Source: Acidobacteriota bacterium
Lineage (GTDB): Bacteria > Acidobacteriota > Vicinamibacteria > Vicinamibacterales > UBA2999
Assembly (NCBI GenBank): GCA_021730945.1
Contig: JAKFYH010000064.1
Span: 1 to 36,215 of the forward strand
Length of the DNA stretch: 36,215 bases
Reading direction: 5' to 3'
Part shown: in pieces, positions 10,196 to 23,181 of the stretch
Numbering within the stretch: the first letter of the stretch is position 1
How the letters are laid out: each line of letters opens with the position of its first letter
Made by a program: the position numbers and the translations under genes
Notes under the pieces: model-generated
Database searches by the model: none
Seen by the model: the letters and a program-made list of their open reading frames with translations, nothing else
Told to the model about the DNA's origin: nothing

Positions 10196-10205
10196 CACGA
10201 GCCAG
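10180..10205 (+). terminator. Hairpin over the DUF5916 stop codon
   Basis: CTGGCTCG (10180-10187) and CGAGCCAG (10198-10205) form a perfect 8-bp stem with a 10-nt loop containing the TAG stop. It sits between two converging genes and could end transcription from the left, but there is no U-run. Confidence 0.35.
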
Positions 10206-10226
10206 CCACGAGTCGAGCCCGTCTGG

Positions 10227-10739
10227 TCATCGCCGGTGCCGGTCGCCGGGCTCGGCCCGGAGTTGCGCCCGCACTTGCCGCTCGACCATCAGCGCCGCCT
10301 TGGTTTCGTAGATGTCGAGGTTGGCGGTGGGGCGGTGGCCGGCCGCCTGGTACAAGCGCCGCATGCCGTCGGCATCGTGGGCGTCGGAAGCCGCCACCTC
10401 GCACGCATGCTGCAGTTCGTGTCCCATCACAGCAGCGCGGTCCTCGGCCCGAAGATCGACGCCGACCACGATGCGGACGTAGCGATACCCGCCGCGGCTG
10501 GTGACTAATCTCGTCGTCCCGCCGAGGCCGGCCGGCATCTGCCGGGACGAGACGATGTGCACGACCAGGTCGGACGATTCCAGCTGGCGAACGAGGTCGC
10601 GCACCAGTGCCGAGCCGGCCATGGCCTGCACGAAGGTCTCGGCGGCCAGCGCATCCAATGGCCGCGGCGTCCGCGGACCCTCAGCCGACGTCACGCCGGC
10701 CAGCGACAAATACAACACGATCAGAAACGTGGGCTTCAC
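10227..10739 (-). CDS. Small exported HExxH protein (putative zinc protease)
   Basis: This is a 170-residue protein. GTG 10739 is chosen because GAGG lies 8 nt upstream and it starts directly on a signal peptide (VKPTFLIVLYLSLAGVTSAEG); the longer frame to 10799 adds 20 residues with no sense. The mature part has DLVVHIVSSRQMP, GYRYVRIVVGVDL and then VMGHELQHACEVAAS, where HELQH is an HExxH zinc motif with Glu/Asp downstream. The C-terminus is basic. Resembles short hypothetical metallopeptidase-like proteins; no substrate or named family is recognised. It converges with the DUF5916 gene. Confidence 0.75.
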   Translation of the reverse strand: MKPTFLIVLYLSLAGVTSAEGPRTPRPLDALAAETFVQAMAGSALVRDLVRQLESSDLVVHIVSSRQMPAGLGGTTRLVTSRGGYRYVRIVVGVDLRAEDRAAVMGHELQHACEVAASDAHDADGMRRLYQAAGHRPTANLDIYETKAALMVERQVRAQLRAEPGDRHRR

Positions 10740-10818
10740 CGAAGCAACCTCGCGAGAAAGGAGCGATAGCCAGCCGGCGCATGGCGCCGGCGGAGTCAAC
10801 CAGGAGAATCGGGAGGGG

Positions 10819-10944
10819 CTACTGCTGCTGCGACGGCTGCTGGCAGCGCTGGTACTGGCGGAGGGCGATCGCGGAGAACTGGCAGGTCGTGGCGTGCGAG
10901 GCGAAGGTGACGGGGAAGTGCGAACCCATCGGGCGGCTGTCCAT
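10819..10944 (-). CDS. Small protein of 41 residues, unknown
   Basis: An ATG at 10944 is preceded by AGGA at a spacing of 8 nt on the minus strand. The frame encodes 41 residues, starting MDSRPMGSHFPVTF, with two Cys, and ends in a Gln-rich tail (YQRCQQPSQQQ). Only one of its 41 sense codons ends in A or T, a third-position bias matching real genes of this chromosome and hard to get by chance. No signal peptide, TM helix or known domain is visible. It lies 79 bp upstream of the HExxH gene on the same strand and could be co-transcribed. Too short for the usual length cut-offs. Confidence 0.45.
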   Translation of the reverse strand: MDSRPMGSHFPVTFASHATTCQFSAIALRQYQRCQQPSQQQ

Positions 10945-11060
10945 GCGGATCATCCTATGCAACGGTTCGCCTGGATTCAACGCATGAGCAAGCGGCATGC
11001 TCCGGCCCGACGCGGCGCCAGCGCTGCGGGGTCGTCTGTGGGCTACAATGGTGGCTGGTT

Positions 11061-11137
11061 CGGGGCGTGGCTCAGCCTGGTAGAGCGTCCGCTTTGGGAG
11101 CGGAATGTCGCTGGTTCGAATCCAGTCGCCCCGACCA
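11061..11137 (+). tRNA. tRNA-Pro (anticodon TGG), integration target
   Basis: This is a 77-nt cloverleaf. The acceptor CGGGGCG pairs with CGCCCCG, the D-arm GCTCAGCCTGGTAGAGC is standard, and the anticodon stem TCCGC/GCGGA closes the loop TTTGGGA (TGG at 11095-11097). The T-arm is GCTGG-TTCGAAT-CCAGT and CCA is encoded. A TACAAT -10-like box lies at 11044-11049. The gene remains whole because the integrated element restores its 3' half. Confidence 0.97.
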
Positions 11138-11138
11138 A
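11089..11138 (+). repeat. attL: 50-bp direct repeat (copy 1)
   Basis: Anticodon stem to CCA plus one base of tRNA-Pro, identical to 21859-21908. Crossover occurred somewhere within these 50 bp. Confidence 0.93.
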
Positions 11139-11154
11139 TAGAGTCAACTACTTA

Positions 11155-11188
11155 CGAGCGCGGCGTAAATCCGCGCTCGTTTCTTTTT
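11155..11188 (+). terminator. Rho-independent terminator after tRNA-Pro
   Basis: A perfect 9-bp stem CGAGCGCGG (11155-11163) / CCGCGCTCG (11171-11179) with a 7-nt loop is followed by GTTTCTTTTT. It is carried by the element, so the element supplies the tRNA gene with a new terminator. Confidence 0.85.
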
Positions 11189-11205
11189 GCAACGTTTTTG
11201 CAACG

Positions 11206-12219
11206 ATGGCTGACCGAACACCATTTGAGAAGGTCCGACTTTTGCTGGAAAAGCCATCCCCGGGTGCGCTTTACAGCTATCCGCGACCGGAAATGATGGA
11301 CGTTTCGCAGTCTCGCGGGGGCGAGCCAGCCCCAGCCAGTTCGGGCGCACGATTGCTACACCCGACAGCCACGGCGATCCGAATACTAATCACCAATCTT
11401 CAAGAGCCTGAGCGAACCGCCGCTGAACAAGCTGTCTTTTTCTGGCCTCAAGCTCACAATCAGGACCTGATCGGCGCACTGATCATTGACCTAGGTCTCT
11501 CAAAGCACCTGAGCCCGACCTTCGATGCTCACACGATTAAATCACTAGCAACAGGCATCAAGGCGGCGATAGTCAGTCGTCCGGCAGCACCCAGCGAGTC
11601 GGAGCTAGACCAAATAAAGAAGTGGGCGACAGACGTAAAAAAGCTGATACCCGAAACGACAGGCTCTCTAGGACTTCGGAAAATCGGCAGTACCGGTTTC
11701 TACTGCGATTCTTTGTTAGGCGTTATTCGCGATGTGGAGCGCAGTCGGATTCAGAACGAATTGCTCGGTTTCGAAAATCCGATGATCGACCGAGACCGCC
11801 GCGAACTGCTCGGCCGTTTGGAGTCTTTAAGCGTTGACTCAGCGGCGTTGGCTTTACTGCACGACGCGGATGCCGAGGCCGCTCAGGGCAAGTTCGAAGA
11901 CGGATTGCATGAACTCCGCAAATTTCTCGAACAGGTAATGAAGACGGTTACGAAAGACACGGTTACTGAGACCGGTGGAGCGCGGTTCAAGATACGGAAA
12001 GACCAAGCCAGTAGTCAGAAGCTGGTCTCGGCCGATGAAGCGGAGTTGCTGCAGAAGCTATACAACCTGCTGTCGAATGCAGGCTCGCACGCGCTGGGCA
12101 GCAAGGCAGAACTATATAGCGTGTGTCGGGCCACCGTCATCGAATGGTGTCTGTTATTGACAGGCCGATTCGCATCACACTCCCCCCACCCTTCGGCGCA
12201 ACTCGACGATCTCGCCTGA
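11206..12219 (+). CDS. Cargo protein of unknown function, HEPN-like C-terminus
   Basis: This is a 337-residue protein if ATG 11206 is used; ATG 11293 is an alternative, and neither has a clear Shine-Dalgarno sequence. The open frame extends back through the tRNA to 10501, but that part cannot be coding. The N-terminal half is helical and polar. The C-terminal region (EDGLHELRKFLEQVM..., LLSNAGSHALGSKAELYSVC, VIEWCLLL) resembles helical abortive-infection or HEPN-type domains with an N-x-G-x-H-x-L-x-S pattern, a loose resemblance only. Codon use is more A/T-rich than the flanking chromosome. It is the first gene inside attL and runs against all the replication genes, the usual place for satellite cargo such as phage defence. 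It overlaps the next gene tail-to-tail by 45 bp. Confidence 0.72.
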   Translation: MADRTPFEKVRLLLEKPSPGALYSYPRPEMMDVSQSRGGEPAPASSGARLLHPTATAIRILITNLQEPERTAAEQAVFFWPQAHNQDLIGALIIDLGLSKHLSPTFDAHTIKSLATGIKAAIVSRPAAPSESELDQIKKWATDVKKLIPETTGSLGLRKIGSTGFYCDSLLGVIRDVERSRIQNELLGFENPMIDRDRRELLGRLESLSVDSAALALLHDADAEAAQGKFEDGLHELRKFLEQVMKTVTKDTVTETGGARFKIRKDQASSQKLVSADEAELLQKLYNLLSNAGSHALGSKAELYSVCRATVIEWCLLLTGRFASHSPHPSAQLDDLA

Positions 12220-12915
12220 GCTTCCGATATCACGCAGGAAGACGAACACCCTATCGAACGCGAAGACGAAGCACTCATTCGCAATCGCCTCAGGCCGTAG
12301 ATAGATTTCACCGGGTCCGAGGTATCGGTTGTTCACGATCAATAGCCATACCTCCGACACGTGCCTTCGATAGTCGGCTACGCGTCCGTTCTTCTCGGAA
12401 ATCCTCGCCTCGACCATTTCCACACCGCCCATTACGGTGTGAATTGCCCGATTCACCGGCCATGTACCATCGGGGGGCTCGTTCCCGAGCGGATCGTAAA
12501 TGGCGATGTGACACCATCCCTTAGGCAGGCGTTCGTCCCGCACCTCGCCCCGTTCGTGCCGGTGCCGGTACACAAACTCGGCCAGCGACAGCGCCAATTC
12601 GTCAACGCGCATCTCCTCCGCTTGTGTAGACATCGCCGTCGCGACACTCAGCGGTGGCGTGTCAGGCCGACTCATATACATCTGCTTGGCGCGTGGGACG
12701 ACCAATGACAGGCGTTTGCCATCCGAGCGTCCTTCCGGGTCGCACAGTTCGGTGATCTCGATGCCGAGCGCGTGGTCCTCAGTCACGAAATCGGGATAGG
12801 GCTTGAACGGTAGCAGTGCAGCCGGGAACAGCGACGACACGTTGCGCGCCTCGTCTAGGTACACCTTCTCGATCCGTGCCTGCTCCTCGACCTTACTCAA
12901 TCGAGCCGTGTTCAC
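12175..12915 (-). CDS. Cargo protein, putative PD-(D/E)XK-like nuclease
   Basis: This is a 246-residue protein from GTG 12915; a TTG at 13014 would add 33 residues. A TACACT box ends six nt before the GTG, so the transcript may be leaderless. The N-terminal EEQARIEKVYLDEARNVS is helical. PYPDFVTEDHALGIEITEL has the layout of a PD-(D/E)XK core (Asp on one strand, E-x-x on the next), and further Glu/Lys residues follow. The rest has strands VWLLIVNNR and ECFVFAFDRVFVFLRD. A nuclease role is inference from this motif alone; fold prediction would be needed. It faces the HEPN-like gene tail-to-tail, and the pair looks like a defence-type cargo module. Confidence 0.7.
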   Translation of the reverse strand: MNTARLSKVEEQARIEKVYLDEARNVSSLFPAALLPFKPYPDFVTEDHALGIEITELCDPEGRSDGKRLSLVVPRAKQMYMSRPDTPPLSVATAMSTQAEEMRVDELALSLAEFVYRHRHERGEVRDERLPKGWCHIAIYDPLGNEPPDGTWPVNRAIHTVMGGVEMVEARISEKNGRVADYRRHVSEVWLLIVNNRYLGPGEIYLRPEAIANECFVFAFDRVFVFLRDIGSSGEIVELRRRVGGV

Positions 12916-13196
12916 AGCAGGAGTGTAACAGAGGGGCGAACGACCGCTGGCCCCGTCAATGAACGAAGCCTGTTCCAGCTTCTTGGTTACCAATCGGGCG
13001 CGTGCCAGCGACAATCGCCCTTGGGCTTTCGTCGCTGGCTACTCGGCGTCACGCCCGACGCCCTTGTGGGTATCTCGACAATGGAGAACACTGGTGCGGA
13101 GCGCCAACGAAGCGGCGCTCAACGCGGGAACGAGGGCCATCATTCGAGCATTACGTATGTCGCAACCCGGCGACAGTCTGCATCCCCCCGCTCCGG

Positions 13197-13796
13197 TTAG
13201 ACTGAAACAGGAACAGACTCACTGAGTAGGGCGGCTGCACCCGACATCAGGGTCTTTAGGCTGTTCTGCAATTCCGCGATCCGCTTTTCCGCTTCTGCAA
13301 TGTCGGCATCGAGTGCCGACAGTGGCCCCGGCCACGCCACTTCCGAGTGACCACACTGCGCACACGTGTCAGTGAGCAATTCCCGCAGCGGCGTTGGCAA
13401 TGCCGGGTGTCCGTTGAGATACTCAACACCGTCCCGCACGGCCGTCAACGACGCGATCAGCGCGTTCTGGTGCGCCCACGCCGCATCACGTGGGCGGGCC
13501 TCAGTGATTGTGCGCACCGGAGGCGCGTCACTGATCTGTTTCTCGATGTTCGCCTTCGCGGCGACCAAGCGCGTGCGCTCTGGTTGCAACACGGCCAGCT
13601 TCGTTGTGGGTTTCGTCAGCGCGTCCAACGTCCCGCGAATGCCGAACAGGTGTTGATCGATGGATTGGGTGTGCGTCAGATACTCGTTAACCTGCCGCTG
13701 CGTCATCGTTCGCGGCAAGTTGAGTTCATCGGTTCGCGTTGCACGTGCGCGTTGCAGGTCGAGCAAGATCGTTTCCGGCGATGCGGGGATTGTCAT
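13197..13796 (-). CDS. Coiled-coil protein of unknown function (satellite operon)
   Basis: This is a 199-residue protein. Its ATG overlaps the stop of the 94-residue gene (TAATG), with AAGGGGA 7 nt upstream, so the downstream start at 13796 is right and the longer frame to 14039 is a shadow. It is rich in helices with heptad-like spacing: LNLPRTMTQRQVNEYLTH near the start, LVAAKANIEKQI in the middle and ALDADIAEAEKRIAELQNSL near the end. A single CAQCGH is visible, one half of a zinc knuckle. No signal peptide or TM. It follows TerL and the 94-residue gene in the leftward operon, where a virus would have its portal; length and composition do not fit a portal. Confidence 0.7.
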   Translation of the reverse strand: MTIPASPETILLDLQRARATRTDELNLPRTMTQRQVNEYLTHTQSIDQHLFGIRGTLDALTKPTTKLAVLQPERTRLVAAKANIEKQISDAPPVRTITEARPRDAAWAHQNALIASLTAVRDGVEYLNGHPALPTPLRELLTDTCAQCGHSEVAWPGPLSALDADIAEAEKRIAELQNSLKTLMSGAAALLSESVPVSV

Positions 13797-14080
13797 TAGC
13801 GGTTCCCCTTTGCGGCAGCCAGGTCCGCCGCGTATGAATCGGGCGGCGCATACGTGGCAGGCTTCGGTGCCGCTGATCGCGTTGATCCCGTCTTGAGTCT
13901 TGCCAGTTCTGGCGCGTATGAGTCGGGCGGTGCGTACGCCGACACGGGCGCGACACGTGACAATCCCCGATTCTGCGTTGGCGTCTTGCCTTGGCACTTC
14001 GCGCAGCGGGGAAAGTCGGGCGTGTCGCCGGAGCAACACACTGCGCCTTTGGCGTTTCGAATCTCGTAATTGTTTTTCAT
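13796..14080 (-). CDS. Small Cys-motif protein with an internal duplicated motif
   Basis: This is a 94-residue protein; AGAGGA lies 5 nt before its ATG. The N-terminus has CC at about 15-16 and CAKC at about 26-29, a possible zinc-binding set. The C-terminal half holds two copies of the motif YAPPDSYA-x-x-LA (YAPPDSYAPELARLKTG and YAPPDSYAADLAAAKGN), separated by a short linker; a third, partial YAP occurrence is part of the same run. The function is unknown. It sits between terL (24-bp gap) and the coiled-coil gene (TAATG overlap), so it is certainly part of the same transcript. Confidence 0.68.
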   Translation of the reverse strand: MKNNYEIRNAKGAVCCSGDTPDFPRCAKCQGKTPTQNRGLSRVAPVSAYAPPDSYAPELARLKTGSTRSAAPKPATYAPPDSYAADLAAAKGNR

Positions 14081-14104
14081 AGTTGTCCTCTTGCTATTCG
14101 TGAA

Positions 14105-15739
14105 TTACAGATGGGGTGATGGTTTGCCGAGCATTGCAAGCATTTCGCCGGTGCGTTCGACGCGACGGCGTTCGATTTCGTTCGGATCGTCCACGTGAAG
14201 CGCACGCCACGCGGCGGGATTGTGAAGTTTCAACCACTGATCGCGATCTGAGGTCCGGAGGCGTTCGGCTGCTTCGTGCTCGATGATCCATTCAGGAGTG
14301 TGCGGCGTTGGGAGCGGTTGCGCCTGCTGCTGTAGGTGGTCATTGCCCCACACCGCCGATTTGCGCAGCGGCTTGTGTGCCGCCAATACCAGGGCACCGG
14401 CTGCAGCGTTCGCCACGTCGTCGTGTTGGCGCGGCGCGTGATCGATGCTGTCTTTGCCACCACGGGCCGTGCGTCGTTCAAGGCCACCGAACTGTTTAAG
14501 CAGACGCGGGTCATCGAGCAGTTCGCAGGTGCCCGACATGATGAGCGGCAGACAGTCTTGGTAGATTTCAGATTTCGTGCGCTCTGATGGCAAGACCGTG
14601 ATGCCCACCTTGCGGAATGCCTCCGTGGGCCAACTTCCGGCGTAGCGGTCGCTGGTGGCCTGCCTGATGGCATACGCCTTCATCACGTCGGCAAACTCGG
14701 CAACGGTCGCTTCAGGCGAAAACGGCGGTTTGGCTTCGCGCAGCAGGTCGAGAACGGCCCGGCCATTCTGGTGGTGTGCGATTGCCAACGTCATGCTATC
14801 GCTACCAGTGCCGCCCGCTGGATCGAGAAAGGCGAAGTAGCTGGCGCGGCGGGTCGCTTGATAGGGCTGCTCGAAACGACCGGGCATGCACACGGCCTCC
14901 AAGGCGGCGTTGGGTAGGAACCTCTCCACGTCACGTCGAAACTGCGCACCGTATTCGGCGGCTGCCGCAATCGGGTCGTCCTCGTACGCGGAATCGACCA
15001 CGTGCTGACTGATAGTAGGATTCATGATTGGTGTTGCGCCGTTGACGACAAGGACCTCTGCCGATTCGTTCTTGCCGAAGTGCTTCTCAAACGTGCGGAA
15101 CACTTCGCCCCTTTGGGCGTAGACGCTGGTAAGTGCGACTAGCATCGCCTCCGGCACGGACGCCATAGCCGCACGCAGCGCGATCAACACCTCCTTGTCT
15201 GGGTTGGCGCTGTCGTCGTCGTCCCAAAATGCAACTTCATCGATGGCCGCGCCGATCACGGTGTACCCACGCAGCGAGCGGAATGAACACGTGTGGATCT
15301 CGATTACCGTGCCATTGGTGAGCGTGATCGCTTCTTTCGTCTCATTGGCAATCAGGACCGCCAGCGAGGGGTGTGATCGCAGCAGACCGGAGACGTAGCG
15401 CTTGATCACGCGGGCCTGCTTGCGGTCAGCGGCGATGACCATGAACACGCCCACTTCGCCGGGCGCGAGTGTGTATGTGCGACAGGTGGTGGCGAACACC
15501 GCCAATAGCGCAGCGATGATGCTCTTGCCAGATCTGCGGCCAAGCAAAAGCCATAGTTCTCGCACAGGCGATGTGGGCAGGGTTTGGCGATGCGTTAGGG
15601 CGTCGACCACCACGCGTTCCTCTGGGGACAAGTCGAGTGCGTGAGCGGCCTTGAGGACCGTGCGCCACGTTTGCCAGGTGTCACCCGCGAAGGTGGAACC
15701 GAGCACACGCGTCATGAGTTGCAAAACGTTATTTGTCAT
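14105..15739 (-). CDS. terL: Phage terminase large subunit
   Basis: This is a 544-residue protein with both TerL domains. The ATPase has Walker A GRRSGKS at 67-73 and Walker B VIGAAIDE with D167/E168. The RNase-H-like nuclease has FLDPAGGTGSD (D306), TSDRYAG (D364) and a QHDDVANAAAGA end (D440/D441). All catalytic residues are present, so it should both translocate and cut DNA. It packages DNA into preformed heads together with a small subunit and a portal. Here the portal and capsid must come from elsewhere. It overlaps the terS-like gene by 11 bp. Intact TerL without any head gene is unusual for a satellite. Confidence 0.93.
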   Translation of the reverse strand: MTNNVLQLMTRVLGSTFAGDTWQTWRTVLKAAHALDLSPEERVVVDALTHRQTLPTSPVRELWLLLGRRSGKSIIAALLAVFATTCRTYTLAPGEVGVFMVIAADRKQARVIKRYVSGLLRSHPSLAVLIANETKEAITLTNGTVIEIHTCSFRSLRGYTVIGAAIDEVAFWDDDDSANPDKEVLIALRAAMASVPEAMLVALTSVYAQRGEVFRTFEKHFGKNESAEVLVVNGATPIMNPTISQHVVDSAYEDDPIAAAAEYGAQFRRDVERFLPNAALEAVCMPGRFEQPYQATRRASYFAFLDPAGGTGSDSMTLAIAHHQNGRAVLDLLREAKPPFSPEATVAEFADVMKAYAIRQATSDRYAGSWPTEAFRKVGITVLPSERTKSEIYQDCLPLIMSGTCELLDDPRLLKQFGGLERRTARGGKDSIDHAPRQHDDVANAAAGALVLAAHKPLRKSAVWGNDHLQQQAQPLPTPHTPEWIIEHEAAERLRTSDRDQWLKLHNPAAWRALHVDDPNEIERRRVERTGEMLAMLGKPSPHL

Positions 15740-16262
15740 TCATCACTTCCGCGAGTGACGGCACGCGTTTCGTTTGCCGTTGTAGACCGACCACACCGGC
15801 AATTTTTATGAAGCGGTCTAACACCATGAGGTATGTCGTTGTCGCAGCCCGCATTGCGCCTTTGCCCGTTAGAACGCCGCCCTCGATCAATTCGTCGCCA
15901 AGTGCCGCCAAGATGATTTCGAGTCTCGCCACTTCGCGTACGGATGCCCGTTGCAGGGATGACAGTTCAGAGGCACCACCCAAGTCGGCGTGAATCGCTT
16001 CGACCTGTTCCCGGTGCCACTCGGCTACGTCTCGCTGCTCCAAGAGCAGGGACGACCGCAGGCCCGTTTTCACGGCCATGGCGTTGCCCGGCCCGGCCCG
16101 GCCGTCTGACTGCCTGCCGTGCCCTCGAAGTGCGGCCACGGCTTCGCGGGCGCGTTCGAATAGCTCTTCAGGTGGACGTTCCCCGGACGGTGTGACCGGT
16201 TGTGCGCCTTCTTGCGAGTCTTTTTGCAAACCGAGTGGTTTCTCTTCGAATTCGTTAAGCAT
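15729..16262 (-). CDS. Putative terminase small subunit
   Basis: This is a 177-residue protein directly before terL and overlapping it by 11 bp. Residues 1-70 are polar and probably disordered. GLRSSLLLEQRDVAEWHREQ and the following helices (LSSLQRASVREVARLEIIL, TGKGAMRAATTTYLMVLDRF) resemble the helical centre of small terminase-like phage proteins. No sequence motif proves it; position and helical content are the main evidence. In satellites the small subunit redirects packaging to satellite DNA by recognising its own pac site. The large hairpin at 16407-16488, 145 bp upstream, is a candidate target. Confidence 0.6.
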   Translation of the reverse strand: MLNEFEEKPLGLQKDSQEGAQPVTPSGERPPEELFERAREAVAALRGHGRQSDGRAGPGNAMAVKTGLRSSLLLEQRDVAEWHREQVEAIHADLGGASELSSLQRASVREVARLEIILAALGDELIEGGVLTGKGAMRAATTTYLMVLDRFIKIAGVVGLQRQTKRVPSLAEVMNDK

Positions 16263-16265
16263 TTG

Positions 16266-16523
16266 TCACCGACATCCCGCCTGTAGGGCAAGCGCACGGG
16301 TTGGAACGGGGGTGCCACTGGCCGTCCGTTTGGTTGAGCCGAGGGACAACGTTCTGAGTTTCTGCGTTGCCGCCGAACGGGGGGGCTGGTGTCCACTGGT
16401 CGTCTTGCAGGCTTCGCAGGCTTCTACCCAAACTTCCATATACGAGAAGTTTTTGTAGGTAAGTTGGGTAGAAGGCTGCGAAGCCTGCACGCCCCCGAAT
16501 TCCGCCCCGTTTTCACGTTTCAT
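16266..16523 (-). CDS. Small ORF (85 residues) spanning the large hairpin
   Basis: Its ATG overlaps the stop of the primase gene (ATGA), and its TGA lies 3 nt before the terS-like start, so it fits the operon exactly. The product begins MKRENGAEFGGVQASQPSTQ and continues with YMEVWVEACEACKTT, then a Ser/Thr/Arg-rich end. Much of the middle is dictated by the inverted repeat, and third-position bias is weaker than in neighbours. It may be a real small gene, or merely an open frame that keeps ribosomes running across a cis-acting hairpin. No domain is recognised. Confidence 0.42.
   Translation of the reverse strand: MKRENGAEFGGVQASQPSTQLTYKNFSYMEVWVEACEACKTTSGHQPPRSAATQKLRTLSLGSTKRTASGTPVPTRALALQAGCR
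16407..16488. repeat. Large inverted repeat between primase and terS (candidate ori or pac)
   Basis: The arms at 16407-16435 and 16461-16488 are complementary over about 28 bp with one mismatch and one unpaired A. The left arm begins with two tandem GCAGGCTTC copies. The 25-bp centre overlaps a second hairpin, AAACTTC (16430-16436) / GAAGTTT (16446-16452), so two foldings compete. Confidence 0.75.
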
Positions 16524-18859
16524 TGCAGCCTCCGTGCCTCAGGCACCTCTTCGAAGATGTCGTCTGCTATGGCCTGCACGACCGGGTCACGCCTCAACCC
16601 CACCCCCACGAACGTCACGTGCCGCTTGGCCTGCTCTGACACCGGGAACAAGCGCCGCATCGCTTTGCCGAAGGCTTTGTCGGTCAGCGGATCGGCGTGT
16701 TGAAACGTGCGGTATTCGGCGTACGCTTCCCCGGCTGTCATCATCAACCCCTCACGCTGATCGCATCGCGCTTCGATGAACGGCATCAGCGGGCTCGACT
16801 CTTGGCGATACGCTCTGGTCGCCGCCTGCACCGTCGGTGGTGGCTTCAATCCTTGTTCCAGCCAGCGCCGCGTCCCCTTGATCATCCAGTTCAGGATGCC
16901 GGGTAGCTCATCGCGCAGTTGATCTTTCAGTTGCTTCTTCTCGCGGCCTTCAAATGAGTTGGTAAAGGGGATCAAGTAAATGCGCCGCCAGATGCCGTCA
17001 TCGTCGCCCACGATCTCGGGTTTAGTGTTCGTGGCAATCCAGATTTTGCCGACCGGAATAAACGTGAAAAACTCTTTGTGAAGAAATCGCGCCGTCATCG
17101 GATCGCGGCCCGTCAACGTCTTTAACTTCGATTCGTTCAGCCGGAACTCGTTGACCTCCGAACTCGTCACAAATCGCTTCCCGACTAACTTCGCCACATC
17201 ATTAGGCACACCACCTCCGCGATCTGATTTTTCTAGGGTCGAGTACGGCAGATCGTCGGTGTAGTCGGCCAACGCCCACGCGATGGTGTTGATCACGGTG
17301 CCTTTGCCATTCCCCCCAAGGCCCCATGTGAAGAAACAACACTCTTCGCGGCAATCGCCGGTGATCGAATAACCGATGGCCCGCTGCATGAACGCAGCCA
17401 TCTCGCGGCCTTGCTCACGGTGTGCGGCTTCGGTCGTCAGATCAAATGGTGGGGTAAAAATGTCGAGCAGCGTTTGTTCCCAGGTCGGGCACGTCGCGTT
17501 AGGGTCATACACCACGCGGGTGCGCATCGTGATGCGATCTTCGGGACGGGCTTTGCGAAACTCGCCAGTGTGTAGATCGACCACGCCGTTGTGAACGCCG
17601 AGCAGGAAGGGATGTTGATCCCAGTTGTCACCTGGGTCCGCAATGGGGGGCACGGTGGCTGCGATGTGCAGCATGTTGATCAAGCGGCTGCGCGATTCGC
17701 CCTTCAGCGCCCAACTGATCGCCGTCTTCTTTTCCTCCGATGGCATCGTGAGAGCGTCTCGCTGGCGGCTGCGCATCGCACGTACCGCCATCCGCGTAGC
17801 CCTCTGGACTTGATCCGGCACCCAGATTCCTGATGCGGAATCCGCAATCAGCCACCGGTCTTGCCGATGATCAAACCGCACATGATCGGCATGCACGTGC
17901 GCGAAGTACTCCGCATCGCCGGCTTCGGTATGAGGGAACGCTTTCGTGTCGCTGGAATCGCCTAGCCCGATCTCCTGCGTCCTATCAAGCGTTCTGCTGA
18001 ACGCGTTCAGCACCTTGCTTCCGGTGTCCTCGCCTAACGCCTCTTTGATCGCGCTCGCGCCTTTTGTTTTCTCGCCCTTGTCGATCAACTCAATCGTGTT
18101 GCGCACAGCAGGGGCCACATCCGCCACGTCGCTGCCGGTGGCATCCATCACGGCTTCGAGCAGCGTGATAATCGGCCCCGCTGTCAGGCCGTGTTCGTAC
18201 AACACCTTCGCGTACGCAAGGCGCAGATCGTGGCGATGGTTGCCCGGCCACGTCGTGACGATGATGAACGCGATGGCGAGATGTTGCACAGCTGTGGCGA
18301 GCACGCTGGCGTCCACACGTCCGATTTCTCCGCGAGGTTCCAGAAAGCGAATCGGTTCTCCTGATGGATGCACCGACCCCGGTGCGACACTCAGTGAATA
18401 CGTGTGCTTCTTGGTGCGTGCGCGTAGTTCGACGTGCATCCCGCCGTCGGTGCCGCGATACTGACGGGTGACAAGGTGGCCGGTCGTTAGATAGGTGAAG
18501 TGGGACACCGGCTTCGACGCCCGTCCGTAAACCCACCCGGTGCGCGGTAGGATTCGACGGGCGAGCGTTGCGGTCGCTCGGTGCGTGATGTCGATGTCCA
18601 CATCCGCAATGGCGGTGCCAGGTTCCGGCGCAAAGCCATTGAGCAGCGCAATGTTGTCATCGGGCTTGAACTGGCCGTCCTTGGCTTCATGCCCCGGCTC
18701 ACTCCACCTAGTGAGGCGTCCTCGTTTTTCACCACGCGCCACCGGTGTGACGGCTATGCCATGCGCCTTGTAGAACGCAATCGCGTCAGCCAATGAAATT
18801 GGACTGGACACAACCGACGTTGGCCGTTCGGACATTGCCTCTAACGAAACGACCGTCAT
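16520..18859 (-). CDS. Primase-polymerase / P4-type helicase
   Basis: This is a 779-residue replication protein. The N-terminus (SLADAIAFYKAHGIAVTPV, then GTAIADVDID) resembles bifunctional primase/polymerase domains, with the DVDID acidic residues. The C-terminal third is the D5/P4 superfamily-3 helicase: a D5_N-type region, Walker A GLGGNGKGT at about 510-520, an IATNTKPEI sensor and a WRRIYLIPF arginine-finger region. Satellite P4 and many SaPI-like islands replicate from one such protein plus an origin. It overlaps the gene on each side (TAATG upstream, ATGA downstream), so it belongs to one polycistronic unit. Confidence 0.9.
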   Translation of the reverse strand: MTVVSLEAMSERPTSVVSSPISLADAIAFYKAHGIAVTPVARGEKRGRLTRWSEPGHEAKDGQFKPDDNIALLNGFAPEPGTAIADVDIDITHRATATLARRILPRTGWVYGRASKPVSHFTYLTTGHLVTRQYRGTDGGMHVELRARTKKHTYSLSVAPGSVHPSGEPIRFLEPRGEIGRVDASVLATAVQHLAIAFIIVTTWPGNHRHDLRLAYAKVLYEHGLTAGPIITLLEAVMDATGSDVADVAPAVRNTIELIDKGEKTKGASAIKEALGEDTGSKVLNAFSRTLDRTQEIGLGDSSDTKAFPHTEAGDAEYFAHVHADHVRFDHRQDRWLIADSASGIWVPDQVQRATRMAVRAMRSRQRDALTMPSEEKKTAISWALKGESRSRLINMLHIAATVPPIADPGDNWDQHPFLLGVHNGVVDLHTGEFRKARPEDRITMRTRVVYDPNATCPTWEQTLLDIFTPPFDLTTEAAHREQGREMAAFMQRAIGYSITGDCREECCFFTWGLGGNGKGTVINTIAWALADYTDDLPYSTLEKSDRGGGVPNDVAKLVGKRFVTSSEVNEFRLNESKLKTLTGRDPMTARFLHKEFFTFIPVGKIWIATNTKPEIVGDDDGIWRRIYLIPFTNSFEGREKKQLKDQLRDELPGILNWMIKGTRRWLEQGLKPPPTVQAATRAYRQESSPLMPFIEARCDQREGLMMTAGEAYAEYRTFQHADPLTDKAFGKAMRRLFPVSEQAKRHVTFVGVGLRRDPVVQAIADDIFEEVPEARRLQ

Positions 18860-19272
18860 TACTGCACGCTGCCCTGTTTTGGCGTCACGCGACGAAGCAG
18901 CAAGGACTCAATTGCGGCTGCGGCTGCGGCAGGGTCGAATGTCACCGTCCAGCAGTCGGGATCACTGAACCAACTGAATCTTCCGCACGGTCGGCATAAG
19001 CCCGTCACCATCGTCGCGGTTACGCTGGTGGCGTGCGTTGCGCGACGGTGCGCGTAGGTGAGCATGATCCCCCGCCAGCCGTCGATCGGCGGGATCACCA
19101 CGAACGTGTGTTCGTTGGCGACGGCGATGATGCAGAACGCGTCGGGCAGCGGCAAATTGACAATCTGTCGCAACGCCGCTGCGAATTCCGGATCTCTTCC
19201 CGAAAACAGAATCTTTGAAACTCGCAGCGCTGCGTCTTTCAGCGCTGCGTCTTTCATGGGGGCTGGGCTCAT
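18859..19272 (-). CDS. Unknown protein of the satellite operon, 137 residues
   Basis: The start overlaps the excisionase-like stop (ATGA) and the stop overlaps the primase start (TAATG). The N-terminus contains a small duplication (KDAALKDAAL; the 15-bp unit is repeated in DNA). The body has two hydrophobic strands (DAFCIIAVANEHTFVVI; GWRGIMLTYAHR) and a CRPCGRFSWFSDPDC segment that may bind zinc. No family recognised. The position between excisionase and primase is often used for small regulators or replication accessory proteins, but nothing in the sequence decides. Confidence 0.68.
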   Translation of the reverse strand: MSPAPMKDAALKDAALRVSKILFSGRDPEFAAALRQIVNLPLPDAFCIIAVANEHTFVVIPPIDGWRGIMLTYAHRRATHATSVTATMVTGLCRPCGRFSWFSDPDCWTVTFDPAAAAAAIESLLLRRVTPKQGSVQ

Positions 19273-19481
19273 CGACGCACCTCGATGGGTGCGCTACTAG
19301 CGATCAGCCACTCGTTGATCCATTCGACGTGAATCCTGATGTCGCGCCGCGCCCCGATTCGTGCGCAGCGTAGCCGCCCCGCTTTGATCTCGCGGTACAG
19401 CAATCGTGCGCCGACTTTGGCGATTGTTCTGGCTTCCGCAATCGTCAGCCATGGTGAGGTGGGCTGAGCATTCTCAACCAC
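19269..19481 (-). CDS. Excisionase-like MerR/HTH-17 DNA-binding protein
   Basis: This is a 70-residue protein. LTIAEARTIAKVGARLLYREIKAG, continuing RLRCARIGARRDIRIHVEWINEWL, is the winged-helix layout of excisionase/AlpA-type proteins (L-t-xxEA, then Y-xxI-xxG-L-xxxRxG-xxxR-I-xx-xxxxxWL). GTG 19481 is chosen because GAGGG lies 9 nt upstream; GTG 19490 is another possibility. It begins within the 3' end of the repressor gene and overlaps the next gene by ATGA. Such proteins bend attachment-site DNA for excision or activate integrase genes. The long frame to 19715 is rejected because its first 75 residues are the repressor read in another frame. Confidence 0.8.
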   Translation of the reverse strand: MVENAQPTSPWLTIAEARTIAKVGARLLYREIKAGRLRCARIGARRDIRIHVEWINEWLIASSAPIEVRR

Positions 19482-19725
19482 GGCGGTCACCCTCGATCTC
19501 GACGGGCGGTGCGTCGTCGGCAGGCCCGCCGGGCTCGCGGACCTCACGCTGCAAGGCGTCAGCGGGCACGCCGAGCAGCCGCGAGAGGCGCTGAGCTTGG
19601 AGCGGGCGGGGCTCGGCCATGCGCCGCTCAAATCGTGAAATCTCGCCCTGCGTCGTCTGGGCGTGGAAGGCAAGGTCTGTCTGGGACCAGCCCCGGTCCC
19701 GGCGTTCGGCTTCAAGCACAGTCAT
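19474..19725 (-). CDS. Cro/cI-like HTH-XRE repressor
   Basis: This is an 83-residue protein. RDRGWSQTDLAFHAQTTQGEISRFERR is the helix-turn-helix of the XRE family (W-S-Q-x-x-L-A, then x-x-x-x-x-I-S-x-x-E). LQAQRLSRLLGVPADAL follows, and the tail is a short Pro/Glu-rich stretch. It lacks the C-terminal oligomerisation or LexA-like cleavage domain of long cI proteins, so induction probably works through another protein, for example a helper-phage product. It is the first gene of the leftward operon, and its promoter region holds the operators that separate it from the rightward integrase unit. Confidence 0.85.
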   Translation of the reverse strand: MTVLEAERRDRGWSQTDLAFHAQTTQGEISRFERRMAEPRPLQAQRLSRLLGVPADALQREVREPGGPADDAPPVEIEGDRRG

Positions 19726-19732
19726 GGTGAGA

Positions 19733-19785
19733 ACTGTTATACCGCCGCCCTAGCGGTTTTGGTATATGATACCGCCGTAAACAGT
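19733..19785. promoter_or_regulatory. Divergent promoter/operator switch
   Basis: Between the repressor and the rightward unit lie a dyad GGTAT-atg-ATACC (19761-19773) that overlaps TATGAT (19765-19770, -10 for the right unit) and two direct repeats ATACCGCCG at 19739 and 19769, 30 bp apart. There is also a minus-strand TATAAC (19735-19740) and outer arms ACTGTT (19733-19738)/AACAGT (19780-19785). This fits cooperative repressor binding; -35 boxes are not clear. Confidence 0.62.
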
Positions 19786-19811
19786 ATTTAACGCTTTATC
19801 ATGGAGATGCC

Positions 19812-20510
19812 GTGAGTCCCAGAATGCGACAACCGAAGCCCCCCAAGGCACCAGAGGCACCCGACAAGGGTGAACGGCTGCGATGGCTTCTCGACTTCAT
19901 CCAACGCGACTTGGCCGCCCTGCGCCCCGGCGAACGGCTAGACCTGACTGCCGACTGCGACCGCCTGTTGCACTGGCGTGACCCGTCAATCGATCTGGCG
20001 TCCGTCGAACCGCCAGACAGCTTCGCCTTCGAGCTGTCGAAGTTGAACGGTGCGCCCGACGTGTCGTACTTCGATGCACTGGTACTCAACGTTCAGGCTT
20101 CATTGAAGATCGGAGTTGAGCACCTTGAAGCGAAGCGGAGTTGGAAACCCATTATCAAGGACGCACTACAGCCCGTGTTCACTGTTCAGAACGACAACAC
20201 GATTGCGCGTCACTATCGCGGCAGTTACGGCGCGATCATGCTCGCATCAGCCGTCGATCTGCTGGTAGAAGGATGGCCGTCGCTGAAGCGTTGTGAGTTG
20301 TCAACGTGCAAGCGCTTGTTTCTTCCTGACGATGGGCGAAAACGGTTTCATGAGACGAAGTGCGGCAACCTCTCACGGTTTCGCAGCGCCGCTGCGAAAA
20401 GGAAACCCCGTGACTACGTGCGGGAAGAACAGACGGCGGCCCGCCGCGATCTTGAGCGCAAGAAGAAGACAACACGTCAACCAATCGGTAACACACGGAG
20501 GACGACATGA
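19812..20510 (+). CDS. CGNR-like zinc-finger protein coupled to integrase
   Basis: This is a 232-residue protein from GTG 19812 with GGAG 5 nt upstream. The first 130 residues are unassigned helices (GERLRWLLDFIQRDLAAL) and a strand-rich middle. The C-terminus KRCELSTCKRLFLPDDGRKR, then FHETKCGNLSRFRSAAAKRK, matches the CGNR zinc-finger plan (C-x4-C...RxxxC...CGN-x-xRxR), although the spacing is slightly altered. It ends in a basic tail. CGNR proteins are usually transcription regulators. The stop overlaps the integrase start (ATGA), so both are made together. It could direct integration or set the switch; this is inference from position. Confidence 0.7.
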   Translation: MSPRMRQPKPPKAPEAPDKGERLRWLLDFIQRDLAALRPGERLDLTADCDRLLHWRDPSIDLASVEPPDSFAFELSKLNGAPDVSYFDALVLNVQASLKIGVEHLEAKRSWKPIIKDALQPVFTVQNDNTIARHYRGSYGAIMLASAVDLLVEGWPSLKRCELSTCKRLFLPDDGRKRFHETKCGNLSRFRSAAAKRKPRDYVREEQTAARRDLERKKKTTRQPIGNTRRTT

Positions 20511-21856
20511 AGGGTCGAACGAAGGGGTTACGCAAGCTGTGCAAGCATCCAGTCCGCCAGTGGTCAACATGCCCGTGCGCGTGGCACTTCAATTTCAAAT
20601 GGAAGGACAAACACCATCGATTCTCACTCGATAAGGAATTAGGCCGTCATATCGACAGCAAGACGGAAGCAGAACTGGAAGCGGCGACACTCAAGATTGC
20701 AATCAAGGCCGGAACGTACGGAACACCCACTGCTGTCAGCGATTTGACCATGCGCCAATTGGCCGATCAGTATCTAGAGCGGAAAGTGGCGGTCAAGAAT
20801 GCGAAGACTAAAGGAGCGTTCGAGTACTCGTTCAGCACGATCTTTGAAACCCAGGTGCCCACGGTGACGGGTGGCACATTGCCATTCGGAGAGTGGCGCG
20901 TGGCAAACGTAGTGACAGACACTATCGAGCGATATCGGGAAGTGCGGTTGCAGCGCACGGGCGCGGTGGGTGTCAATCGTCATTTGGGCACGTTACGCAC
21001 CATGTTCAAGTGGGCCGTCCTCACGGGCTACATCCAGCACACGCCCTTTAAGGTCGGTCATGAGGTCGCGATCAAGCTGTCAAAGGAACATGGGCGCGTA
21101 CGTCGGCTCGTTGAGAACGAGGACACGCGACTGTTTGCAGCGTGCTCGCCACCCCTCAGAGCGATTGCCGAAGCGGACCTTGAAACGGGCATGCGCAAGG
21201 GCGAGATCATGAGCCTGCAATGGTCACAGGTTGAAGGCATGAAGGTCGAGGGGGCTGCGGTCACGTGGACGCCAACCGCACAGATAGCGCTGCCCTGGGC
21301 GAAGACGAAGACCAAAACGCATCGGTTCATTCCGATCTCGACGCGCTTGCGGACGATCTTGGAAATGCGCCGCCACGATCCGGCAGGCAATCCTCACCCG
21401 CTGAGTGCGTTTGTCTTCGGCACGCCTGTCGGCACGCGCCTGTTGAACTTCGGGCGGGCGTGGTACACCGCCGTGTTGAAATCACACGGGCACACCCCCA
21501 CGTACAGTAAGACCGCGAACCTCATGCCTGAGTCGCGTGCGGCCCTCAAACAGATCGATTTGCATTTCCACGATCTGCGGCGCGAGGCCGGGTCGCGCTG
21601 GCTCGATCTCGGCGTGCCGTTGCACACCATCCGCGATTGGCTCGGGCACACGAACATTAGCCAAACGAGTGCCTACTTGTCGGGTACCGAGCGTACGTCG
21701 CACACCGCGATGCAGCAGTACGAGGAGCGAAAAGCCACCTTGCAAAATCTTGCAACAACGAACGGTTTAGGGGGGCAAGACCGGCCACAGGCGGCCACGG
21801 GGGCGGATGAAAAACCTAGCAAAACTATAGAAGGACACAGTTCGACCATCATGTAG
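20507..21856 (+). CDS. int: Tyrosine recombinase (integrase)
   Basis: This is a 449-residue protein. The N-terminus has a Cys/Trp-containing segment (WSTCPCAWHFNFKWK) before a SAM-like core-binding domain. The catalytic set is complete: Arg in LETGMRKGEIMSLQW (about 229), HxxR in HFHDLRREAGSRW (about 354-357), His in WLGHTNISQTS (about 380) and Tyr in SAYL (about 389). The stop lies 2 bp before attR, the standard arrangement for tRNA-targeted islands. The C-terminal 50 residues are polar and low in order. Expression is tied to the upstream zinc-finger gene. Confidence 0.95.
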   Translation: MKGRTKGLRKLCKHPVRQWSTCPCAWHFNFKWKDKHHRFSLDKELGRHIDSKTEAELEAATLKIAIKAGTYGTPTAVSDLTMRQLADQYLERKVAVKNAKTKGAFEYSFSTIFETQVPTVTGGTLPFGEWRVANVVTDTIERYREVRLQRTGAVGVNRHLGTLRTMFKWAVLTGYIQHTPFKVGHEVAIKLSKEHGRVRRLVENEDTRLFAACSPPLRAIAEADLETGMRKGEIMSLQWSQVEGMKVEGAAVTWTPTAQIALPWAKTKTKTHRFIPISTRLRTILEMRRHDPAGNPHPLSAFVFGTPVGTRLLNFGRAWYTAVLKSHGHTPTYSKTANLMPESRAALKQIDLHFHDLRREAGSRWLDLGVPLHTIRDWLGHTNISQTSAYLSGTERTSHTAMQQYEERKATLQNLATTNGLGGQDRPQAATGADEKPSKTIEGHSSTIM

Positions 21857-21858
21857 AA

Positions 21859-21908
21859 CCGCTTTGGGAGCGGAATGTCGCTGGTTCGAATCCAGTCGCC
21901 CCGACCAA
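21859..21908 (+). repeat. attR: 50-bp direct repeat (copy 2)
   Basis: Second copy of the tRNA-Pro 3' half, identical to 11089-11138 and lacking the 5' half of the gene, so it is not a functional tRNA. Confidence 0.93.
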
Positions 21909-21923
21909 ATTCACCCTCAAGTT

Positions 21924-23141
21924 TCAGTTCCTCGCCAGCCGCACCATGTGATCAAAGTCCGGGTCAGTGGGTTCGCCGAGCGCCCGCTTGGCGATGTACT
22001 CGCCGATCACCGGTCCGTGTTTGAAGCCGTGCCCCGAGCCGCCGCCGGCGATCAGCACATTGTCGTAGTCGGGGTGGCGGTCGATGATGAAGTGTTCGTC
22101 GGCGGTGTTCTCCAACTGGCACACGCGCGTCTCGATCACCGGCTGGTCTTTCAGTGCCGGAAAGCGCAGGGCGAGATACGCGCGGGCGCGCCGCACTTCG
22201 TGCGGTGTGACGATGCGTTCGTCGGTGTCGGGGTCGAATGAGGACGCGCCCGAGGTCGCGCATACCTTGAAGCCGCGCTCGTCGATGTTCGCGAAGCCGT
22301 AGTAGCGGTCTTCAGAGTAGTTAGGGAAGTTGGGGAACGTGAACCGGGTGTCGCCGGCCGGGGTGCCGAAGTACAGCACGTCGCGTCCGGGCACCTGGAT
22401 GCGGCTGCCGAGCAGCGCGGGAAACAACCGCGGCAGCCACGGGCCGCAGGCAAACACGAACTGCTGCGCCGCCACGCGGTCGCCATTGGCAATCTCCAGG
22501 TCGACCAGCCGCCGGCCGTCACCGCGCCCGGGTTTGGCGCGGGCAATGGTGACGGTGCCGCCCTTGCGCTTGAAGGCTGAGGCCACGGTGAGAATCGCCT
22601 GCTTGGCCCGCAGCACCGAGGCGCCCGGCTCGAGCAGGCCGACACCCATGCCCTCGGGGTTCATCTGCGGATAGCGCTTGCGCATCTCATCGGGCGTCAA
22701 CGCCTCGGTCGGGACGCCGAGCTTCGCCAGCGTGGCCTGGGTCGCTCGCAGGCCCGGCGTCCAGTCCGGTGCCAACTGCAGGCGCCCGGTCTCCATCATC
22801 AGCGGCACGCCAAACTCGTCCTGGCGGGCTCGCCAGGCCGTGAAGGCCCGCAAGGCCGATCGCGAATACAACTCGCGGTCGCCGTAGCCACAGCGGATCT
22901 GGCGCGTCTCGTCGCCCGAGGTCGCGCGCGAGTTGCCGGGGCCGTAGGCGTCGAGCAGGGTCACGGTGTGGCCCATCTCGCGCAGGTGCAGGGCGGTCCA
23001 GGCGCCGAAGGCGCCGCCGCCCACCACCACCACTGTCGAGCGCGCGGCCGTCTGCACGGCCGCGGCAAGGGTGGCGTCGAGCCCAAGGGCTGCGGCGCCA
23101 ATCGGCACCCCGGTGGTCTTCAAGAACGTGCGTCTATCCAC
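21924..23141 (-). CDS. TAT-exported FAD-dependent amine oxidase (sarcosine-oxidase-like)
   Basis: This is a 405-residue protein from GTG 23141, with GAGGAG 5 nt upstream. The N-terminus DRRTFLKTTG is a twin-arginine signal followed by a hydrophobic run. VVVVGGGAFGAWTALHL is the FAD GxGxxG site near 37. SGDETRQIRCGYG and, near the C-terminus, CQLENTADEHFIID with GGGSGHGFKHGPVIGE resemble monomeric sarcosine oxidase, including the Cys that carries FAD covalently there. Its likely role is oxidation of an N-methyl or other secondary amine in the periplasm; the substrate cannot be read from the sequence. It is the first chromosomal gene past attR. Confidence 0.85.
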   Translation of the reverse strand: MDRRTFLKTTGVPIGAAALGLDATLAAAVQTAARSTVVVVGGGAFGAWTALHLREMGHTVTLLDAYGPGNSRATSGDETRQIRCGYGDRELYSRSALRAFTAWRARQDEFGVPLMMETGRLQLAPDWTPGLRATQATLAKLGVPTEALTPDEMRKRYPQMNPEGMGVGLLEPGASVLRAKQAILTVASAFKRKGGTVTIARAKPGRGDGRRLVDLEIANGDRVAAQQFVFACGPWLPRLFPALLGSRIQVPGRDVLYFGTPAGDTRFTFPNFPNYSEDRYYGFANIDERGFKVCATSGASSFDPDTDERIVTPHEVRRARAYLALRFPALKDQPVIETRVCQLENTADEHFIIDRHPDYDNVLIAGGGSGHGFKHGPVIGEYIAKRALGEPTDPDFDHMVRLARN

Positions 23142-23181
23142 GACTGCTCCTCACCTGCGCGATCGGGGCGAGTGCCCGCGA

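Follow-up and report, generated by a model that had tools for sequence, protein, structure and literature searches.

The contig JAKFYH010000064.1 of an Acidobacteriota bacterium (assembly GCA_021730945.1; 4.7 Mb in 67 contigs), which we analysed over its entire length of 36 215 nt and call the window, carries a 10.8-kb element in a tRNA-Pro gene that encodes a TerS-like protein and an intact TerL (small and large terminase subunit), and in which no head or tail gene is recognisable. The element is real, looks functional and recurs in other genomes. We consider it probable that it is an integrative phage satellite, built in the manner of a phage-inducible chromosomal island (PICI), that carries its own packaging motor; procapsids, tails and lysis functions would then come from a helper phage. 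According to the accessible parts of the literature, to which all our statements on published systems refer, satellite P4 uses the terminase of its helper and PICIs employ their own TerS or redirect helper packaging (PMC9122126, PMC10690885), whereas capsid-forming PICIs (cfPICIs) and MulchRoom-like satellites bring a terminase together with head genes (PMC10690885). A conserved TerS–TerL pair without a shell would thus be a third packaging strategy, and no described satellite of this kind was found in the literature covered, which lies mostly outside subscription journals. It also makes two questions testable, namely whether a foreign motor can load a helper procapsid and whether the match of motor and portal sets the helper range.

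An element between perfect repeats in tRNA-Pro

The initial annotation, made from the sequence alone, had placed the element between perfect 50-bp repeats in tRNA-Pro, which both the tRNA call and a repeat search bore out. The 50-bp pair is the longest direct repeat within positions 10000–23500 and consists of the 3′ part of the tRNA-Pro gene plus one extra base, so that the left copy leaves the tRNA intact. The G+C content per kb is about 0.56–0.63 in the element versus 0.63–0.72 in most of the flanks (0.60 in the first 2 kb of the window). The features of the element are as follows:

11061..11137, + strand: tRNA-Pro(TGG), integration target (ARAGORN; Rfam RF00005)
11089..11138, + strand: attL, perfect 50-bp direct repeat
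11206..12219, + strand: gene A, putative cargo, 337 aa, HEPN/Abi-like C-terminal part by eye only
12175..13014, − strand: gene B, putative cargo, 279-aa open reading frame (ORF; start may be 12915), nuclease-like by eye only
13197..13796, − strand: gene C, 199 aa, coiled-coil-like by eye
13796..14080, − strand: gene D, 94 aa, stop overlapping the gene C start
14105..15739, − strand: TerL, 544 aa (PF03354 at its cut-off, 4.4e-5; phrog_2, 1.8e-20)
15729..16262, − strand: TerS-like protein, 177 aa (by position, and by the placement of its relatives upstream of terL)
16406..16489, no strand: inverted repeat with iteron-like 9-mers (GAAGCCTGC, two copies in the same orientation and one inverted), candidate for an origin, a packaging site or both
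16520..18859, − strand: primase/helicase, 779 aa (Prim-Pol, D5_N, DUF5906; PHROG DNA primase, 2.7e-108)
18859..19272, − strand: gene H, 137 aa (one NCBIfam match, below cut-off)
19269..19490, − strand: excisionase-like HTH_17 protein (HTH_17, 1.1e-6; NCBIfam excise, 1.8e-4, under cut-off)
19474..19725, − strand: XRE-type regulator (PHROG, E 2.6e-7)
19812..20510, + strand: CGNR zinc-finger protein, probable regulator (PF11706, E 1.5e-5, over cut-off)
20507..21856, + strand: tyrosine integrase, 449 aa (PF00589, E 8e-17)
21859..21908, + strand: attR, perfect 50-bp direct repeat

Read from attR inward, the integrase and the CGNR protein on the + strand are followed by a leftward run of overlapping or nearly touching genes (XRE regulator, HTH_17 excisionase, gene H, primase/helicase, a 257-bp gap, TerS-like, TerL, D and C), and the convergent genes B and A occupy the attL end. 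Family matches confirmed the integrase, repressor switch, excisionase-like gene and intact TerL of the initial annotation, with TerS following from position and synteny. Its 'P4-type' primase/helicase is likewise present, but the label is loose, since the protein combines Prim-Pol with a D5-type helicase. Searching the element proteins against Pfam, PHROGs and NCBIfam gave no match to any capsid, portal, tail or lysis family, in agreement with the earlier statement that portal, head and tail genes are missing. In these collections genes B and D had no match (gene B none in PADLOC either), gene A had none there, in PADLOC or in a plasmid search, gene H had none in Pfam or PHROGs, and gene C had matches below cut-off only (none at E ≤ 0.001 in the PHROG scan).

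An empty site, as the initial annotation had hoped for, was found in one clean case. The right flank was queried across the genus (own genome and eight congeners) and the matching places were inspected; genomes, contigs, loci and protein clusters are denoted below by G, C, L and c numbers. In G005 the tRNA-Pro, which matches the att core at 100% over its first 49 bases, is followed after ~80 bp by the two genes of the window's right flank in unchanged order, with no element in between: an FAD-oxidoreductase-like gene (named by eye), 83% identical at the DNA level over 1.2 kb, and then the peptidase-like gene. This is the sole clean empty tRNA-Pro site among the congeners. G007 and G002 have a tRNA-Pro without an element, but their matching flank is inverted relative to the tRNA, which makes them unclean controls; G004 has the right-flank gene and lacks the tRNA-Pro in the stretch examined. 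G008 matches the left flank (74%) and the tRNA-Pro, but a 441-aa ORF adjoins the tRNA, and its contig C30 holds two further 49-bp copies of the att core ~12 kb apart, the second adjoining the right-flank peptidase gene of the window; the site thus looks taken by other islands. With three att-core copies in G008 (L238 on G008:C80; L239 at G008:C30:8772-8820 and 20748-20796), and no TerL or integrase recognised between the two on C30, tRNA-Pro seems to be a hotspot for further islands.

The terminase pair and the repeats upstream of terS

The TerL of the window, the only TerL match in its own genome, has a full set of ATPase and nuclease motifs (sites assigned by motif): Walker A GRRSGKS (67–73), Walker B D167/E168 and the nuclease residues D306, D364 and D440/D441. 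In an alignment of 21 compact relatives (described below) and the window, the Walker B glutamate and four nuclease aspartates are retained in 22 of 22 sequences and the Walker A lysine in 21 of 22. The ratio of non-synonymous to synonymous substitution rates (dN/dS) of the six closest compact pairs was 0.12 (L060/L069, 84% identical), 0.21, 0.21, 0.34, 0.22 and 0.25, rough values because dS is 0.9–1.6. The TerL of L082 (704 aa) exceeded our length limit and is absent from the tree and the residue counts.

The TerS-like protein matched no named family; its stop overlaps the start of terL. A profile built from it and the 28 proteins that it matched found 117 proteins at E ≤ 1e-4, and 89 of these lie directly upstream of TerL. 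Its AlphaFold2 (AF2) model (mean predicted local distance difference test, pLDDT, 78) weakly matches HK97 TerS in 6z6e (Z 7.1, root mean square deviation, rmsd, 3.0 over 85 residues, with an unrelated chain tying at Z 7.1) and in 8pop (Z 6.9, rmsd 2.7 over 84 residues); Foldseek gave nothing at E ≤ 0.001.

Might the pair serve something other than packaging, such as interference with the packaging of phages (defence) or the resolution or maintenance of plasmids? Some plasmids that encode ParA or a serine recombinase do carry TerL relatives, and the cargo of relatives includes defence domains. However, the ATPase and nuclease sites are both retained, TerS remains paired with TerL, and in some relatives capsid or tail genes lie beside the two, so that we regard a non-packaging role as very unlikely. 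Among plasmid records, six matched TerL, two of them over 80% of the query; a Komagataeibacter (25.8 kb) and a Roseomonas (9.7 kb) plasmid are among the six. The Roseomonas plasmid (L018, 9720 bp) and Komagataeibacter pKNA06 (L017) are both small and circular, and each has a primase-like gene, a serine recombinase and TerL. The TerL ORF of L018 is truncated beside a transposase-like ORF (by eye), and L017 contains a unit that is duplicated in part, one of its TerL copies being split in two pieces. L020 (G038:C1:4088493-4096159) holds two TerL copies of this family at a distance of ~6 kb, one of them interrupted by an in-frame stop, as tandem or decaying elements.

In the window, the gap before terS contains a 9-mer in two direct copies and one inverted copy, within a long inverted repeat (z −8.3) that is unique in its genome. 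The long inverted repeat was rejected as a family trait, a comparable one being present only in L047 among 99 other regions upstream of terS. Short repeats at this place are a shared trait across loci: among gaps of 200–600 nt, 23 of the 41 that precede terS have an 8-mer in at least three copies, versus 63 of 483 other gaps (Fisher P 1e-9) and versus 8 of 64 other gaps within att-bounded elements (Fisher P 3e-6), P-values that are indicative because the loci are related. With gaps of 100–900 nt the counts are 24/68 upstream of terS versus 105/1031 elsewhere. As the origin of Gram-negative PICIs is reported downstream of the primase (PMC10111431), a replication origin would be the simplest reading of these repeats, and a packaging site is possible. 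A candidate 85-aa ORF (16266-16523, − strand), whose ATG overlaps the primase stop and which has no NCBIfam match, spans the inverted repeat.

Relatives with and without head and tail genes

As a single sequence, TerL had matches at E ≤ 1e-8 in 9 of 59 relatives besides its own genome, and a profile search (E ≤ 1e-20) of 192 further genomes in the class matched 18. Further loci came from a pattern scan of genome contigs (the best 80 of 106 relatives), from viral contigs (the best 80 of 85 loci), from annotated phage records (six distant matches, none covering 80%) and from the plasmids above; all four sets are biased samples. The layout is not peculiar to the Acidobacteriota: most of the genome-scan loci are proteobacterial, with Planctomycetota, Aminicenantes and others in addition.

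We called an element att-bounded if TerL lies between exact repeats of 16 bp or more that are located at a tRNA or next to an integrase. This holds for 37 of 169 TerL loci, or 36 distinct ones, L033 (Acidobacteria bacterium SJ725) repeating L019 and being counted once; 32 of the 36 sit at tRNA genes. The sequence of L033 is the exact reverse complement of contig C8 in G036, a genome of the window's family. In the family scans 22 elements had no head or tail gene, 12 had one to a few, and two remain unclassified (L045 with an 840-aa ORF without PHROG match, and L023, which lay outside the scan). A recurrence of the layout at tRNA genes of relatives, which the initial annotation proposed to look for, is seen in the 22 compact elements, which measure 6.4–12.9 kb and of which 20 lie at 11 kinds of tRNA gene. 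Their repeats are 22–58 bp long in 18 cases and 16–18 bp in L037, L062, L073 and L082. The usual gene order is integrase, small xis/AlpA-like gene, replication gene, TerS, TerL, a variable late zone with uncharacterised genes, and cargo; TerS is labelled in 19/22, an integrase in 19/22 and a clustered primase/helicase in 8/22, and a PHROG scan added further primases and three integrases. Cargo of the compact relatives includes defence genes (ISP-type and other restriction-modification genes, a SMODS nucleotidyltransferase, HEPN domains), which tie such elements to phage resistance; defence cargo is also carried by P4 satellites (PMC9122126).

Two scans covered proteins of at least 100 aa from the compact elements, each with some proteins of the window added. 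In the broad one (140 non-core proteins of the 22 compact elements plus the CGNR protein of the window), the best 25 of 102 PHROGs and the best 25 of 41 Pfam families were integrases, primases, helicases, methyltransferases and the like. In the narrow one (A–D of the window plus the 54 proteins that the compact elements encode downstream of TerL on its strand), the 58 proteins matched 18 PHROGs, of which the sole virion-related one was 'head scaffolding', with one protein at E 7e-4; its bearer was not found among ten proteins tried.

Head or tail calls in the other 12 elements are PHROG matches of cluster representatives. No member of the two PHROG-identified portal clusters (c12, c22) occurs in any of the 36 elements. 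HK97-type capsid genes (by cluster) without a PHROG-identified portal-cluster gene are found in L048, L114 and L159, of which L048 and L114 are att-bounded; these loci are possible capsid-only satellites. L042, L078, L038, L063, L057 and L059 are att-bounded, measure 10–18 kb and have a tail tape-measure gene, and no capsid or portal was recognised there by cluster, in a scan that covered part of their genes.

These data bear on the possibility that a complete phage integrated, then lost its head, tail and lysis genes, and is now decaying. The initial annotation had named head or tail genes in relatives as a finding that would speak for such a deleted prophage; they do exist in the 12 elements, and the TerL family also adjoins portals in viral contigs. 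On the other hand, the capsid-less form recurs at many tRNA genes, genes of the two PHROG-identified portal clusters are absent from all 36 elements, TerL keeps its catalytic residues with a dN/dS of 0.12–0.34 among compact pairs, and in the window the att repeats are still perfect and the main frames open. Indeed, 36 distinct TerL-spanning att loci, 32 of them at tRNA genes, make a one-off deletion unlikely, and overall we give this explanation very little credence.

The proposal of a separate class is partly supported at most, as head or tail genes in 12 of 36 elements amount to a gradient, and the capsid-less elements do not form one group in the TerL tree. The latter result is weak either way, since 74 of the 155 rows are unclassified loci; the portal labels of c87, c132 and c134 and the tail label of c104 were guessed from size and place. 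The compact label requires 18 changes on the tree, 12 of them forced by starred branches. We dropped a reading of repeated origin in view of the unclassified rows and guessed labels.

A further alternative is a cfPICI-like element, with a divergent capsid or portal hidden among A, B, C, D and H or in the helical gene that follows TerL in relatives. Uncharacterised genes do come straight after TerL, some relatives have the HK97-type capsid gene, and two related helical clusters, c13 and c10 (hhalign 98.8%), often stand directly after TerL, a c10 member even lying between TerL and the portal in L116, L127 and L191. For c36, no relation to c10/c13 was established. However, the window proteins lack a head family in the three collections, A and B are convergent at the far end and cargo-like, and the modelled post-TerL protein of L075 is all-helical and not HK97-like, although the membership of gene C in that family is not established: its single sequence did not match c13, an alignment including it matched weakly, and we rejected the assignment. 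The c13 model (pLDDT 94) had no match at E ≤ 0.001, and a second look gave generic helical bundles alone. Taken together, we judge a capsid-forming satellite unlikely.

Comparison with known satellites and a proposed cycle

If the element is a satellite with its own motor, infection by a helper would relieve the XRE repressor, and integrase and excisionase would excise a circle from tRNA-Pro. The primase/helicase would then replicate it from the repeats between primase and terS, the satellite TerS would recognise satellite concatemers, and TerL would attach to a helper procapsid at its portal and pump satellite DNA into it, with capsid, tail and lysis provided by the helper.

Several points weigh against this. 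Induction, excision and the virion steps are predictions from gene content. The earlier expectation of a helper prophage with a matching portal found no support in the own genome, where PF04860 and PF05133 (portals), PF05065 (capsid) and PF03237 (terminase) had no match, though all four matched in control genomes; other portal and capsid families were unsearched, and the silence of PF03237 is weak because it also misses the window's own TerL. Divergent head proteins could hide among A, B, C, D and H, which have no family, and the scans of compact relatives covered upstream and antisense proteins only as best-listed matches. Head or tail genes are present in L042, L048, L054, L078, L114, L038, L057, L059, L063, L065, L071 and L087. 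The identity of TerS rests on synteny with a weak fold match, and dS is near saturation in the TerL pairs used for dN/dS. Finally, the integrase points outward and HTH_17 stands in place of AlpA, unlike in typical Gram-negative PICIs.

Among the satellite kinds in PMC11389934 (P4-like, PICI, cfPICI, PLE, PICMI, VEIME and tycheposons), Gram-negative PICIs (PMC10111431) are similar to the element in being small islands, often at a tRNA gene, with integrase, excisionase/AlpA-type regulator, primase and a variable late zone that has taken up late genes of phages; the origin of these PICIs is reported to lie downstream of the primase. The window has the integrase, an excisionase regulator (of HTH_17 rather than AlpA type) and the primase, and iteron-like repeats as candidate origin at the corresponding place; its integrase, on the + strand toward attR, departs from the inward integrase with AlpA of these PICIs. 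Many relatives do have an inward integrase and the small regulator c2, for which the name AlpA was chosen by its position and appearance and not by a scan. Other differences are the constant late module of TerS and TerL, the other hosts and the lack of an identified helper. The late zones of PICIs are described as changeable regions that acquire late genes from phages (PMC10111431), so the family is best filed as a PICI-like variant with the terminase pair as its constant late module.

The cfPICIs, by their description in PMC10690885, likewise encode TerS and TerL (in the window TerL is assigned by its family and TerS by synteny and a profile), but have their own capsid, protease, portal and connectors, none of which was recognised in the window. 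P4-like satellites (PMC9122126, PMC4936722) share integrase, excisionase-type regulator, primase/helicase, a size of about 11 kb and the absence of structural genes, but P4 relies on the terminase and cos of its helper; no sid, psu or delta family was matched by A, B, C, D or H in the Pfam, PHROG and NCBIfam scans. MulchRoom/MiniFlayer encode TerS and TerL along with their own portal, capsid and scaffold and no obvious replication genes, the opposite mix (PMC10690885). The portal, capsid, tail and lysis genes expected of a complete prophage are missing from the family matches as well. On the genes recognised, the element is therefore neither P4-like nor capsid-forming by the defining traits of these groups, and it lacks the inward integrase and AlpA of Gram-negative PICIs. 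Pseudomonas AH14b was considered as a capsid-less, terminase-bearing precedent and rejected, as no terminase gene is identified there in the accessible part of PMC4936722. For Acidobacteria and phage satellites jointly, there was no paper among the matches listed.

In a wider sense, satellites that carry the motor and steal the shell could be a widespread lifestyle over several phyla, which needs only a compatible helper portal and in which some lineages gain or lose single head or tail parts; we see the chances of this as evenly balanced. If true, bringing TerS and TerL along with replication genes, and with a repeat site placed between these two modules, would free the satellite from the terminase and packaging signal of its helper, and the gain or loss of single parts would make these satellites a bridge between PICIs and cfPICIs. 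In little-studied phyla, TerS–TerL between tRNA repeats without a portal offers a handle for finding satellites. L027 (G005:C22) is an 8.7-kb capsid-less element at tRNA-Arg of a congener, whose integrase is 56–57% identical to that of the window and whose TerL is distant, which points to reshuffling of integrase and packaging modules.

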